From: Lamprocystis purpurea DSM 4197
GTDB lineage: Bacteria > Pseudomonadota > Gammaproteobacteria > Chromatiales > Chromatiaceae
Assembly: GCF_000379525.1 (NCBI RefSeq)
Contig: NZ_KB902497.1
Span: 1 to 47,990, forward strand
Length of the DNA stretch: 47,990 nt
Direction of reading: 5' to 3'
In this document: piece after piece, positions 24,057-35,114 of the stretch
How positions within the stretch are numbered: the first letter of the stretch is position 1
Layout of the letters: each line of letters begins with the position of its first letter
Notes under the pieces: generated by a model
The model's database searches: none
What the model was told of the DNA's origin: nothing
Seen by the model: only the letters and a program-made list of their open reading frames with translations
Made by a program: the position numbers and the translations under genes

Positions 24057-24070
24057 TGACACGATCAGTC

Positions 24071-24125
24071 ATTCCTCCATTCCTCCATTCCTCCATTCCT
24101 CCATTCCTCCATTCCTCCATTCCTC
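24071..24125 (+). repeat. Octanucleotide tandem repeat (ATTCCTCC), about 6.9 copies
   Basis: Six perfect copies of ATTCCTCC (24071-24118) plus a seven-base partial copy. The tract lies between the EAL gene stop and the sulfatase start at 24149. An ATG at 24056 reads through it in frame into the sulfatase. Because the unit is 8 bp, each gain or loss of a copy would shift that frame. The first 6 copies are uninterrupted. Confidence 0.95.
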
Positions 24126-31175: not shown

Positions 31176-31359
31176 AGACGCGATGACGAGTGCCGACCAT
31201 CTCGCGCACGTGGCCGATGTTGATGGGCCAGTCTCTCAATGCAGGTACAGCAGCGCGCGCGTGCTAAATCCGCACCGATGAGCACCGGACATTGCCTGAG
31301 CGTAGCGGCGGGCTGAAAACCCTCCACCCTGCATCCGGTGATCACCTGGGGCACCGAAA

Positions 31360-32346
31360 TTACTGATCCTCCGCAAACCAGGCCGCCAGTCGTTCTTTGA
31401 CCTCCCGGAACCCCGGCCGCGCAAAGATGAAATGTCCACCGGGGAAAATGACCTGGTCAAACGATGCGAACTGTTTGGGAACCGAGGAGCCCCATTCCAC
31501 GATCGATGCCGAGGGCATGACCAGGAAATCATGTTCGCCCACCAGATTGAAGAAATGGATGTTGGTCACGTCACCGTCGAAATGAAATGCTTCTTCTGTT
31601 GCGTCGGCCTTTTGCGCGAACCCCTCCTCCAGAATGTCCATGAAGGCGGCGAACGGCACCAACCGGTCATCATAGGTTAACGTGAGCGCCTTCGTAAAAG
31701 TTTCGGGCCCGGCTTCCCAGAAGCGCTGCCAGAACCACTCGATCATCGAGATGCCGGTGCTTTGCATGATAACCATATTCATGGCAGACAAAGAGATACC
31801 GGTATTCTCCAATGCCGGACGATAAGGCTTCACGGCTTGATAGAATTGCAGGAAGCTTCTGGCCATGCCCAGATCACGGGCGCCCATGATCGGCGATCCG
31901 TAATAGGAAATCTTGTGAAAGCGTTTGCCGTAGTCCTTGTTCTTCTTCAGCTCACGATTGATGAGATGCGAGGTGATCAAACCACCGATACAAATGGCGA
32001 ACACGTTGAGGTTATCGACATCGTAGTCGTTCAGCAGCGGCGTCACAGCCTTCTCATCAAAGGCATCGGCTAGGTCGTTCAAGGTCCAGCCGCTGAGCGT
32101 GAATAGCGATTCCTTGCCCCAGTCCATCAGGAACACATCGAAACCCTGCCGGTTGAAGAACTCGATGAAATTCTCCTTGTTGAAACAAGTCCCGTAGGCT
32201 CTTGTCATTATCGAGTAATTCAAGATGATAGGCCGCTTCTGCCGCTTGTCGGCGGTCGCCTCCGCCGCGAATTTCCAGATGTTGAAATTCGCATCTTCGT
32301 AATAGATCTGTGCTTTGGTGTTCGCGAAATATAAACGGTCTAACAT
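31360..32346 (-). CDS. PhaC-like alpha/beta hydrolase (class III PHA synthase type)
   Basis: A 328-residue protein resembling class III polyhydroxyalkanoate synthases. Nucleophile Cys119 lies in FAICIGG (the lipase-box-like site), the putative catalytic Asp273 in LVGEHDFLV, and His305 in PGGHFIF. The N-terminal region is shorter than the about 355 residues of the Allochromatium enzyme. No phaE or other pha gene is adjacent. The coding sequence looks clearly more AT-rich than its neighbours, suggesting transfer. It may be a diverged synthase or a related acyltransferase. The ATG at 32346 follows GAGG. Confidence 0.8.
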   Translation of the reverse strand: MLDRLYFANTKAQIYYEDANFNIWKFAAEATADKRQKRPIILNYSIMTRAYGTCFNKENFIEFFNRQGFDVFLMDWGKESLFTLSGWTLNDLADAFDEKAVTPLLNDYDVDNLNVFAICIGGLITSHLINRELKKNKDYGKRFHKISYYGSPIMGARDLGMARSFLQFYQAVKPYRPALENTGISLSAMNMVIMQSTGISMIEWFWQRFWEAGPETFTKALTLTYDDRLVPFAAFMDILEEGFAQKADATEEAFHFDGDVTNIHFFNLVGEHDFLVMPSASIVEWGSSVPKQFASFDQVIFPGGHFIFARPGFREVKERLAAWFAEDQ

Positions 32347-32393
32347 ATCAGCCTCGGCTGTGATAGATTAGGGTCTTTGCTGGAACGTGCCGC

Positions 32394-33899
32394 TCAGCAT
32401 TCCACCATCGTGACGCCCAGACCACCGGTACCCATTTCCCTGAGCCGCGCCGGCATAGCGCGGCCGGCGTCGGCCATCGCCGCAATGACCCGATCGAGGT
32501 CTTCCCAGTGCTGGGAGGCGATTTCATTCTTGGCAATCAGCCAGGCGTTATACGCCTTGACGGCACCAAAGGCGTTGCGCTCAATGCAGGGAATCAGGAC
32601 GAATCCCCCTACTGGATCGCAGGTCATGCCCAGGTGATGCTCCAAAGCGATGGTGGCGGCGTTCTCGGTGACATCCAGGGGCGCGCCTGTGGCATAGGCA
32701 AGCAGGGCGGCGGCCATGGATGAGGCCACGCCGATCTCAGCCTGACACCCCATCTCGGCCCCGGCCACGCTGGCGTTCGTCTTGCATATCAGACCCACGG
32801 CCCCGGCCGCCATCAGCCCCTGACGCACTGCCGCGCGGGGGATTTGCAGTCGATGGTTCAGCGTATAAAGCACCGCCGGCATGGTCCCGGCCGAGCCCAA
32901 GGTAGGCGCGGTCACTGCCAGGCGCCCCGCGGCATTGCCTTCCGCGACCGCCAGGGCAAAGCTGCTCAATTCGCCCATGAAGCCATCGCCGCCATCCGCG
33001 ACGGCTTTTTCATTGATTCGCTTGGCCTTGCGATAAAACGCAAAAGGCCCCGGCAGCAGCCCCTCCTCGGTCAATCCGAGCGTGACACCCCGATCCATGG
33101 TGTCGATGACCAGGTCGAGGTGGTCATTGACCGCCTGCTCACTGACGCCCATGATCGCCATTTCGTTGTCCAGCATGATTTGGTGCAGCGGCAGGCCGCT
33201 GGCGGCAGCCGCTTGCTTCAATTCAGTCATGCTGCCGAAGCGATGCACCGGCTGGCCGCGATCGGGCGGGGGCTCACCCTTCCAGGTGTAGAAGCCGCCG
33301 CCGGTGGAATAATATTCGCGCGCGAAGATACTGGTACCGTCGCCGGCCAGTAGACGCATTATGAGGGTGTTGGCATAAGGAAAGGCGTGGTCCCCCCGGT
33401 CCCAGACGATCGTGTCCCCGGACAGCCGGAACTGCTTGCCCCCGATCTGCGTCGTGCGCACCTGCGTGGTGTCCTGCAGGGCATCCATCAATGCGGTGTC
33501 GCAGGTCTCCGGCTGCTGTCCGAGCAGCCCGGCCAGTAAGGCACGATCGGTCCGGTGCCCCTTGCCGGTGGCGCTGAGGCTGCCAAACAGCGTCACCTCG
33601 ATCCGCTCGGCTTGGGCCAATTGGTCCACGGGCAGCGCGGCCACTGTGGCCCGGAAGTTACTGGCAATTCGAATCGGCGCTACCGTATGGGAACTGGAGG
33701 GTCCGGGTCCGATCTTGAACAGATCCTTAAGGGTGCTGGCGATGCTGCCGGTCGGTGGTCCCTGGTAGCAGAGGCCCATGGGTCGCCCACCCATGGACTC
33801 GGCGGGGATGCCCCGCGCGCCAACGACTCGCGGGAGCAGCAGCGCACTACCGACCACAGGCGCGATGGCGGACAGCTTGAGAAATTCGCGACGGTCCAT
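32394..33899 (-). CDS. sdaA: Iron-sulfur L-serine ammonia-lyase with N-terminal Tat signal
   Basis: Converts L-serine to pyruvate and ammonia with a [4Fe-4S] cluster. The one-chain SdaA type is shown by KIGPGPSSSHTVAP (residues 62-75). Cys385 (MGCQAEIG), Cys427 (MTCDPVGG) and Cys438 (LIPCIERN) are the cluster ligands. The final residue, Cys501, matches the C-terminal Cys that closes the site in the Legionella enzyme. Unusually, residues 1-30 read MDRREFLKLS plus a hydrophobic stretch ending in Ala-Arg-Gly, a twin-arginine export signal. The protein is about 45 residues longer than E. coli SdaA. The start has GGAGC 7 nt upstream. Export of a serine deaminase is not the known norm. Confidence 0.9.
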   Translation of the reverse strand: MDRREFLKLSAIAPVVGSALLLPRVVGARGIPAESMGGRPMGLCYQGPPTGSIASTLKDLFKIGPGPSSSHTVAPIRIASNFRATVAALPVDQLAQAERIEVTLFGSLSATGKGHRTDRALLAGLLGQQPETCDTALMDALQDTTQVRTTQIGGKQFRLSGDTIVWDRGDHAFPYANTLIMRLLAGDGTSIFAREYYSTGGGFYTWKGEPPPDRGQPVHRFGSMTELKQAAAASGLPLHQIMLDNEMAIMGVSEQAVNDHLDLVIDTMDRGVTLGLTEEGLLPGPFAFYRKAKRINEKAVADGGDGFMGELSSFALAVAEGNAAGRLAVTAPTLGSAGTMPAVLYTLNHRLQIPRAAVRQGLMAAGAVGLICKTNASVAGAEMGCQAEIGVASSMAAALLAYATGAPLDVTENAATIALEHHLGMTCDPVGGFVLIPCIERNAFGAVKAYNAWLIAKNEIASQHWEDLDRVIAAMADAGRAMPARLREMGTGGLGVTMVEC

Positions 33900-34120
33900 T
33901 TGATTGCTCCGGTCAATAGGGCTCAGGGGCGCAAAACTGTGCGCCGTATGGGAAGACCCTCAATAGTCTAGTTGGGCCTCACCGCAACCCGCCGAGCAAG
34001 CGGTCACAAATCAACAACTACGCCGGGGGAAACCTGGTGGCGCCTTGGCCTGATTGCGCCGGGGAATGGCCGCCGGATCGACCAATTCCTCGACACAGCA
34101 AGTCTCCGGTGTCGGATCGA

Positions 34121-34792
34121 TCAACGGTCCAGCACCTGCCCCGCGTCGCGCACCAGCACGATCAACTCCTTGGGTCCATGCACACCATAGGTGAGGGTCT
34201 GCTCGATATCGGCGGATTTGGACGGGCCGGTAATCAGCAGGGCGTTGGTCGGCAGCCCCGGCGCCCAGCCTTGGACGTGCAGCAATTCAGCGAAGGTGGT
34301 GAAGATGGCACCGGCATCCAGCAAGACGACATGGATCGGCGGCACCAGTGAAAGCAGCCGGGGCTCATGGATATCCGGCCACAGCACCAGGGTTCCGGTC
34401 TCGGCAATCGCGCCGCGGCATCCGGTGAAGCCCGCCTGGACCTGATCGAACAGTTCACCCCGCCAGCGCTCGATCGGCTCCTGGTAGGGTTGCAGCCGGA
34501 TGGCGGCCGGCACGGGCCAGGCACCTTGCAGCTCGGCCACGACGGGCCCGCCGGCGCCGCACAGCAGATCCGTCACCCCGCGCCGACGCAGCAGGTCGTG
34601 CAGAACCAGCGGCCAATCCGCGCCGACCCGCTGCACTTGGCCGTGGACCGCCTCCAGCCGCTCCTGGAAACGTGCCAGCCGTTCTTCCGAGTCCCAATCG
34701 AAACGGCGGACCGCGAACGCGGCTGCCGAACTGACCGCGGGCGGCACAGCCGCGCGCAGGCGCGTGAGAATTCCTGCCTTTGCATCGGTCAT
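34121..34792 (-). CDS. LUD domain protein, LutC/YkgG-like
   Basis: A 223-residue protein of the LUD family. LutC acts with LutA and LutB in lactate oxidation in Bacillus. Here it carries LAETGTLVLW-type residues (AIAETGTLVLWPDIHEP), SLVPPIHVVLLDAG and LLITGPSKSADIEQTLTYG, followed by HGPKELIVLV. No lutA or lutB lies in the window, so its electron or substrate partner is unclear. The start is the ATG at 34792, with GGAGG 9 nt upstream, rather than frames reaching into the upstream hexanucleotide repeat. sdaA is next on the same strand, after 220 nt. Confidence 0.85.
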   Translation of the reverse strand: MTDAKAGILTRLRAAVPPAVSSAAAFAVRRFDWDSEERLARFQERLEAVHGQVQRVGADWPLVLHDLLRRRGVTDLLCGAGGPVVAELQGAWPVPAAIRLQPYQEPIERWRGELFDQVQAGFTGCRGAIAETGTLVLWPDIHEPRLLSLVPPIHVVLLDAGAIFTTFAELLHVQGWAPGLPTNALLITGPSKSADIEQTLTYGVHGPKELIVLVRDAGQVLDR

Positions 34793-34816
34793 GATCACCA
34801 TCCTCCGGATAAGCGC

Positions 34817-34840
34817 GTTGTCGTTGTCGTTGTCGTTGTC
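34817..34840 (-). repeat. Hexanucleotide tandem repeat upstream of the LutC-like gene
   Basis: Four perfect copies of GTTGTC on the plus strand (GACAAC on the minus), about 25 nt before the LutC-like start. A related CGATTACGACAACGAC stretch occurs in opposite orientation at about 35043-35058, making an imperfect inverted pair. As a 6-bp unit, it would change leader length rather than reading frame. Confidence 0.85.
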
Positions 34841-35114
34841 GTAATCGGAGCGATTCAAATCGGACATGAGCGGCCCGATGCCGATCGGGTTTCGATTGGC
34901 GACACACCTTGGACGTACAAAGCCACCAAGTCTCTGCAATGCTTCGCTCGTCGCGTCCAGGACTAACGAACCGTTGCGCTGCTGTCAAAGCTCGGAGAGC
35001 GAAACGACGCGGTGCGAGGGCATCGTCGCGGGTATCCTAAACTCGATTACGACAACGACCGAGACGCCAAAGAAATCCCCTAATAGACTTGTTTAACTTA
35101 TTATTGAACGGTTC

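Follow-up and report, generated by a model that had tools for sequence, protein, structure and literature searches.

A one-chain serine ammonia-lyase (SdaA) encoded in the genome of Lamprocystis purpurea DSM 4197 carries a Tat-type signal ahead of a complete enzyme core, and it belongs to a clade of SdaA proteins with the same architecture. Tat-dependent export of the enzymes of this clade is well supported by sequence and very likely, though unproven. SdaA is generally regarded as breaking down serine in the cytoplasm, and none of the open-licence papers listed describes an exported serine dehydratase, as judged by titles and the beginnings of abstracts. If true, the exported clade would mean that the use of amino acids at low oxygen includes a periplasmic step, would place a non-redox, oxygen-labile Fe-S lyase among the cargo of the Tat system, and would offer a simple system for asking why a cell should deaminate outside its inner membrane.

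The reading that we consider probable has several steps. The enzyme would fold and acquire its [4Fe-4S] cluster in the cytoplasm, the Tat translocon would export the folded protein, and the signal would be cut after residue 28 (between VGA and RG). In the periplasm, the mature lyase would then release pyruvate and ammonia from serine or from a closely related beta-hydroxy amino acid.

The gene (501 aa) occupies positions 32394..33899 of the window, by which we mean the whole 47,990-nucleotide stretch of contig NZ_KB902497.1 that was analyzed; it lies on the minus strand, as do all features of the gene given below, and its 501 codons contain no internal stop. The product matches TIGR00720 over its full length (374.5 bits against an equivalog cut-off of 345.1), shows the Pfam order SDH_beta then SDH_alpha (PF03315, PF03313), and aligns with the Legionella pneumophila enzyme 4RQO at an E value of 9.3e-81. 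The profiles, the 4RQO alignment and the fold delimit a serine dehydratase core at residues 57-501 (32397..33731), with the beta domain followed by the alpha/catalytic domain. The initial annotation had described the cluster cysteines and the C-terminal cysteine as intact, and the 4RQO alignment bears this out. The cluster ligands are Cys385 (32745..32747), Cys427 (32619..32621) and Cys438 (32586..32588), whose Legionella counterparts we take to be residues 343, 385 and 396, and the C-terminal Cys501 (32397..32399) is the counterpart of Legionella Cys458. On the same alignment, His115 (33555..33557) corresponds to His61, proposed as the likely catalytic base of the Legionella enzyme (PMC12647591). 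The cluster cysteines, the C-terminal cysteine and the base histidine are kept across the Tat clade, with the frame of one copy (L005) stopping short of the last two cysteines; another copy (L146) reads TGRGH in place of TGKGH and keeps the base histidine. Judged by these sequence features, the open reading frame encodes an L-serine ammonia-lyase of the TIGR00720 type (one chain, [4Fe-4S]) in its complete form, with L-serine as its presumed substrate.

Ahead of the core is an extension of 55 residues that begins MDRREFLKLS and contains the predicted cut between VVGA and RG (residues 1-55 read MDRREFLKLSAIAPVVGSALLLPRVVGARG...); with ordinary relatives, the alignment of the core mostly starts around residue 45-58 of the window protein. 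The elements follow one another in the order D-RR-E-FLK, hydrophobic stretch, VGA. Motif and conservation together mark residues 1-28 (33816..33899) as a predicted Tat-type signal peptide, which contains the twin-arginine motif DRREFLK at residues 2-8 (33876..33896). The following linker, residues 29-56 (33732..33815), is fast evolving by dN/dS and of low confidence in the structure model.

Distribution and gene neighborhoods

The architecture was found in the window, in three other Thiodictyon genomes, in two members of another gammaproteobacterial family, and in the family of a more distant genome (G697), which has seven copies in six genomes. A search for further SdaA proteins with the extension, proposed in the initial annotation, thereby brought the number of copies to 13, in three families and two classes. 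Within the window's order, 61 of 210 genomes match at E <=1e-20 and only four Thiodictyon genomes align from residue 1; the three sisters with the same architecture are 94, 88 and 83% identical to the window protein. The window's class (126 of 369 genomes at E <=1e-60) gave one new full-length match, G407 at 65%. Across the phylum (198 of 398 genomes) there was one outlier among the matches listed, G697 at 48%, with 431 bits versus 302 bits for the next. No further carrier appeared in G697's class, where 61 of 337 genomes matched and the next best stood at 43%. Carriers make up six of the 75 genomes of G697's family, in which one more genome has an ordinary SdaA, and the same six are the carriers among the 76 genomes of its order; G407's order has two carriers in 40 genomes. 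A contig-wide scan returned, among the matches listed, two Thiodictyon and two Bacteroidota records. Examination for the Tat motif covered the retrieved loci, at most 30 per search, a range in which divergent exported versions could be missed. G697's class is probably Alphaproteobacteria: it was the best-matching class for the SdaA of Azospirillum (74%), Sinorhizobium (63%) and Agrobacterium (61%), while Roseomonas SdaA matched the window's class slightly better (62% versus 60%) and Burkholderia SdaA had its best match in the window's class.

Among the eight genomes of the window's genus (the window's own and seven others), the gene is present in four, decayed in one and absent from three. One of the four copies, in G003, has a frame broken at about residue 431 (L154 near 7027), which is either a real break or an assembly error. 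T. syntrophicum (G007) retains only a remnant consisting of residues 1-59 and 445-501 (L108, 9825-10171), with the pieces in different frames and the middle of the gene gone, as expected of a decayed copy. G001, G002 and G004 gave no SDH_alpha match. Because it has been lost in T. syntrophicum and is absent from three other members of the genus, the Tat-type gene is dispensable. The main text of the T. syntrophicum genome paper mentions TAT genes and has no word beginning with "serine" (PMC5944118). A plasmid search found no match of at least 60% identity with L078; with P0001, one piece at 60-80% was counted, and it was not recovered with the C-terminal 66 residues.

The window's genome has a single SDH_alpha gene, and none of the 12 carrier genomes has an ordinary SDH_alpha gene alongside the Tat-type one. 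Nine of the 11 other carriers have one SDH_alpha place, the G003 gene is split into two pieces, and both copies found in G1325 are Tat-type. The two G1325 copies (L148, L149) are very similar, and each lies behind a Porin_4 gene.

In G697's family, an outer-membrane porin gene adjoins the Tat-SdaA gene on the same strand at all seven copies, as OprD (PF03573) downstream in five (L104, L147, L150, L151, L152) and as Porin_4 (PF13609) upstream in two (L148, L149). The retrieved stretches of this family (up to 20 kb) also contain genes for an AspT-type exchanger (5/7), a pyruvate formate-lyase (PFL) activase (5/7) and PFL itself (4/7). None of these was found in the L148 stretch or in the 12-kb L152 stretch, and in G1325 all three accompany the L149 copy only. 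The exchanger and PFL genes are on the enzyme's strand in only two of the five loci (L104, L149). In L150, L151 and L147 they are on the opposite strand: nearby in L150 and L151, and at a distance of 6-8 kb in L147, where it is the exchanger and activase genes that are present and the stretch ends before any PFL. At L104, PFL and activase exceed their equivalog cut-offs (1109.4 over 994.2 and 292.5 over 231.75, respectively), and the exchanger exceeds that of the general AspT/YidE/YbjL domain (199.9 over 71.95) while falling under that of the aspartate-alanine antiporter model (186.6 versus 546.95). L150, the one locus searched in this respect, has a PF01226 formate/nitrite transporter gene between exchanger and porin.

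The sequence TTGA-N6-TCAA, which we take to be the FNR/FixK pattern, occurs within 300 nt upstream of four of the seven G697-family copies, counted from hand-set, approximate starts. No FNR-like box was found upstream of L148, L149 or L150, nor upstream of any of the six gammaproteobacterial copies. As background, there are 15 occurrences in the 255,524 bases of all 13 loci, upstream boxes included, and 14 in the 131,406 bases of the seven G697-family loci, or 0.032 per 300 nt. The L147 stretch has six boxes in 19.9 kb, together with FabI-like and DUF3141 genes, which suggests a low-oxygen gene island. The G407 copy follows a FixH gene, in a run that by eye resembles cytochrome cbb3 genes.

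The neighbors of the G697-family copies suggest a route that would lead from porin to deamination, pyruvate uptake and PFL. In this family, the amino acid would enter through the outer-membrane porin and be deaminated in the periplasm, the resulting pyruvate would be imported, with the AspT-type exchanger as a possible carrier, and PFL would split it under low oxygen; we infer both the pyruvate uptake and the low-oxygen use. The route agrees with several of this family's loci. The fuller proposal is a porin-fed periplasmic serine fermentation module, in which the Tat-exported lyase, AspT-type pyruvate import, PFL and a formate channel would be switched on at low oxygen. It is tentative, and we think it possible without expecting it to hold in full. 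If true, the cell would take up the pyruvate and leave the ammonia outside, and an oxygen-labile, non-redox Fe-S enzyme would have been placed in the periplasm. Purple sulfur bacteria of stratified lakes are described as inhabiting the oxic-anoxic border, where an oxygen-labile periplasmic cluster might survive.

The annotated Thiodictyon neighbors of the gene include no porin, PFL or AspT, and the window's genome has no AspT-type exchanger over the cut-off (there are two sub-threshold matches), so the module is not directly transferable to Thiodictyon. The same exchanger result, and the lack of a pyruvate-uptake or PFL gene among the annotated Thiodictyon neighbors, would fit an enzyme that is Tat-exported for the removal of serine or for the external release of ammonia (in connection with pH, toxicity or signaling) and not for pyruvate feeding. 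Most copies of G697's class have genes for PFL, its activase and the exchanger nearby, which argues against this purpose, and we regard it as an unlikely one.

In the window, the gene is followed by one for a PhaC-like alpha/beta hydrolase (31360..32346, minus strand; assigned by profiles and neighbor comparison), which begins 47 nt past the SdaA stop. Such a gene also adjoins the Tat-SdaA gene in G006 and, on the opposite strand, in G1353, as well as the remnant in G007, and hence occurs beside it in two families; neither the 9.2-kb G003 contig nor the G407 stretch of 19.9 kb was found to contain it, and in G005 the contig stops right past the Tat-SdaA gene. The hydrolase scores 57.5 against the class III PhaC model, far under the cut-off of 365.3. 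A promoter and terminator scan of 31200-34950 returned weak consensus matches only. Two repeats were seen elsewhere in the window. Seven perfect tandem copies of CATTCCTC at 24070-24125 come shortly before an ATG (about 24149) and are a possible slippage-prone switch. The hexamer CGTTGT is present in 4.5 copies at 34816-34842, close to where a LUD-domain gene, read from TTG, begins; since the Tat-SdaA loci of G005 and G007 have a comparable repeat nearby, this TTG start may be wrong.

Sequence signature and substrate

A tree of the 13 Tat-type cores and 62 of the 117 others, with the extension left out, places the 13 together on a long stem (SH-aLRT 99, stem 1.36). The tree was made by a quick method and the program warns of long branches meeting, so that the uncertainty concerns where the clade attaches more than whether it is one group. 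On this evidence, the 13 Tat-type proteins are one separate, patchily spread clade. They have a private motif, GPGPSSSHT, found in 13/13 Tat-type and 0/117 other sequences, the latter having I, V, L, H or Q in place of P; 12 of the 13 were counted in the alignment, and L140, which had been filtered out there (as had L008), was read separately. The 115 ordinary pseudomonadotal rows have 132 columns conserved at 95% or more, and the Tat clade retains 93 of these.

Asn334 and Ala336 are each present in 115/115 ordinary pseudomonadotal rows. In what is the most telling of its changes, the Tat clade has Leu or Gly at the first position and Ser at the second, giving the motif PTLGSAG or PTGGSAG, and the window protein has Leu334 and Ser336. 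Further clade-specific changes are R291 to K (12/13), F361 to G and G285 to P. With Asn334 and Ala336 altered, the substrate may differ, and all five changes would suit an exported enzyme acting on some other beta-substituted amino acid, such as cysteine or threonine. Set against this are the retained base histidine, cluster cysteines and C-terminal cysteine, as well as the score above the TIGR00720 equivalog cut-off. Moreover, two Bacteroidota relatives read TAPTCGSCG, with Cys and Ser at positions 334 and 336, so that Asn334 varies within the wider family and its replacement is not by itself a sign of a new substrate. A substrate of this other kind is thus doubtful, and deamination of serine or a close beta-hydroxy amino acid is the reading that we retain.

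The predicted export signal and its start codon

The initial annotation had described RREFLK plus a hydrophobic stretch as a Tat signal. Both elements were confirmed, and an RR-signal proved common to the 13 copies: RR.FL is invariant in six aligned sequences, and by inspection all 13 combine the motif with a hydrophobic stretch and an end that is AxA-like. The formal Tat prediction that had been suggested gave a divided answer, with the motif architecture in favor and the TIGR01409 (Tat signal) score of 15.1 bits narrowly under the curated cut-off of 16.7. The three sister Thiodictyon genes score 15.0 (L003), 26.7 and 25.7, and 7 of the 10 N-terminal pieces of relatives that were scanned, a set that left out L142 and L145, are above the cut-off; the N-termini of L054 and L146 gave no TIGR01409 match. 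A profile search found TatC in the window's genome at 240.4 bits.

The cut after residue 28 was read by eye from the AxA-like pattern. This manner of placing it, together with a linker of about 28 residues that would be suitable for a tether, leaves some room for an uncut signal that holds the enzyme at the outer face of the inner membrane. By inspection, position -1 of the predicted cut is Ala in all 13 copies and position -3 is either Val or Ala, which argues against a tether and makes it quite improbable. A Tat lipoprotein was rejected, the relevant Cys44 lying 16 residues past the predicted cut and not at it.

The export reading depends on the start codon. The good ribosome-binding site claimed for this start holds up: GGAG at 33907..33910 (minus strand) lies 7 nt before the ATG, recurs with equal spacing in the three sister genes, and is thus kept in four genomes. 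Purifying selection acts on the Tat signal. Across the four Thiodictyon copies, codons 1-30 have dN/dS values of 0.18-0.32 and the core 0.07-0.24, and the linker is less constrained (0.18-1.45). For codons 1-30, the pair L054/L146 gives 0.22 and the six copies of G697's class give 0.04-0.25, counted from the residue before DRR; single values are rough because thirty codons are few. In the 60 nt upstream of those start points, only 18-32 of 60 sites match without gaps; in G697's class, this stretch may include coding sequence ahead of the motif. BLAST similarity to the window ends 34 nt (G005) and 25 nt (G003) above the ATG, and with G006, the closest relative, it extends to 114 nt above. An internal start past residue 30, the case named at the outset as refuting export, is thus countered by the selection on codons 1-30 and the weak similarity above the ribosome-binding site, and a wrong start was rejected on these grounds.

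An automatic test for an RR motif and a hydrophobic stretch ahead of the core flagged nine of 125 SdaA loci, eight of them in the Tat clade. Before this count, 20 loci, mostly duplicates, had been set aside; nine more failed the motif filter (L008, L022, L024, L025 and the Tat-type L139, L141, L142, L143 and L145), of which the Tat-type ones were added later. The ninth flagged locus, L088, was read as having its RR in untranslated sequence ahead of an ordinary start, and in L038, L044, L045, L048 and L049 an ERR right before the ordinary start, without a hydrophobic stretch, was taken as a chance RR. With the RR-signal present in 13 copies from three families and two classes, it is very unlikely that the start is wrong or that the match arose by chance. 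A cytoplasmic enzyme, with the RR-stretch a chance feature or a relic or with an internal start, would explain why each carrier genome has a sole type of SDH_alpha gene, as expected for an ordinary cytoplasmic job, and why the window signal scores just under the Tat cut-off, but the conserved ribosome-binding site and ATG, the selection on codons 1-30, the recurrence of the architecture in three families and the porin neighbors make it highly improbable.

Comparison with known systems

The closest known enzymes are the SdaA/SdaB proteins represented by 4RQO, with which the window protein shares domain order, the three cluster cysteines, the base histidine, the C-terminal cysteine and the fold. 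It differs in its 55-residue Tat signal and linker, in GPGPSSSHT and PT[LG]GSAG, and in belonging to a separate clade. An AlphaFold2 model from a 4-sequence alignment (mean pLDDT 63) was used only for the overall fold and for the low confidence of residues 1-55. Its best solved match in Foldseek is 4RQO (E 1.8e-22, TM 0.67/0.74, 37% identity), followed by the L-cysteine desulfidase CyuA (9FYI; E 3.9e-7, 11% identity). CyuA has the same superfamily fold and is also a [4Fe-4S] lyase, but its base residues, Cys23/Glu25, are reported as not conserved in SdaA/B (PMC12647591). A closer relationship to CyuA than to SdaA was rejected on the identities in the fold comparison (11% for 9FYI versus 37% for 4RQO). 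The Bacteroidota-type L-serine ammonia-lyases (L028, L029) have K291, A299 and S336 in common with the Tat clade; unlike it, they have no extension in the aligned part and read GxGPSSSHT with H or Q, and their identity is 38%.

To our knowledge, an amino-acid dehydratase is unusual as Tat cargo. Most Tat cargo of E. coli is described as binding redox cofactors (PMC3712460). With Tat-exported cofactor enzymes, the window protein shares the RR motif, the hydrophobic stretch and the AxA-like end, and insertion of its cofactor before export would be expected, as for them.
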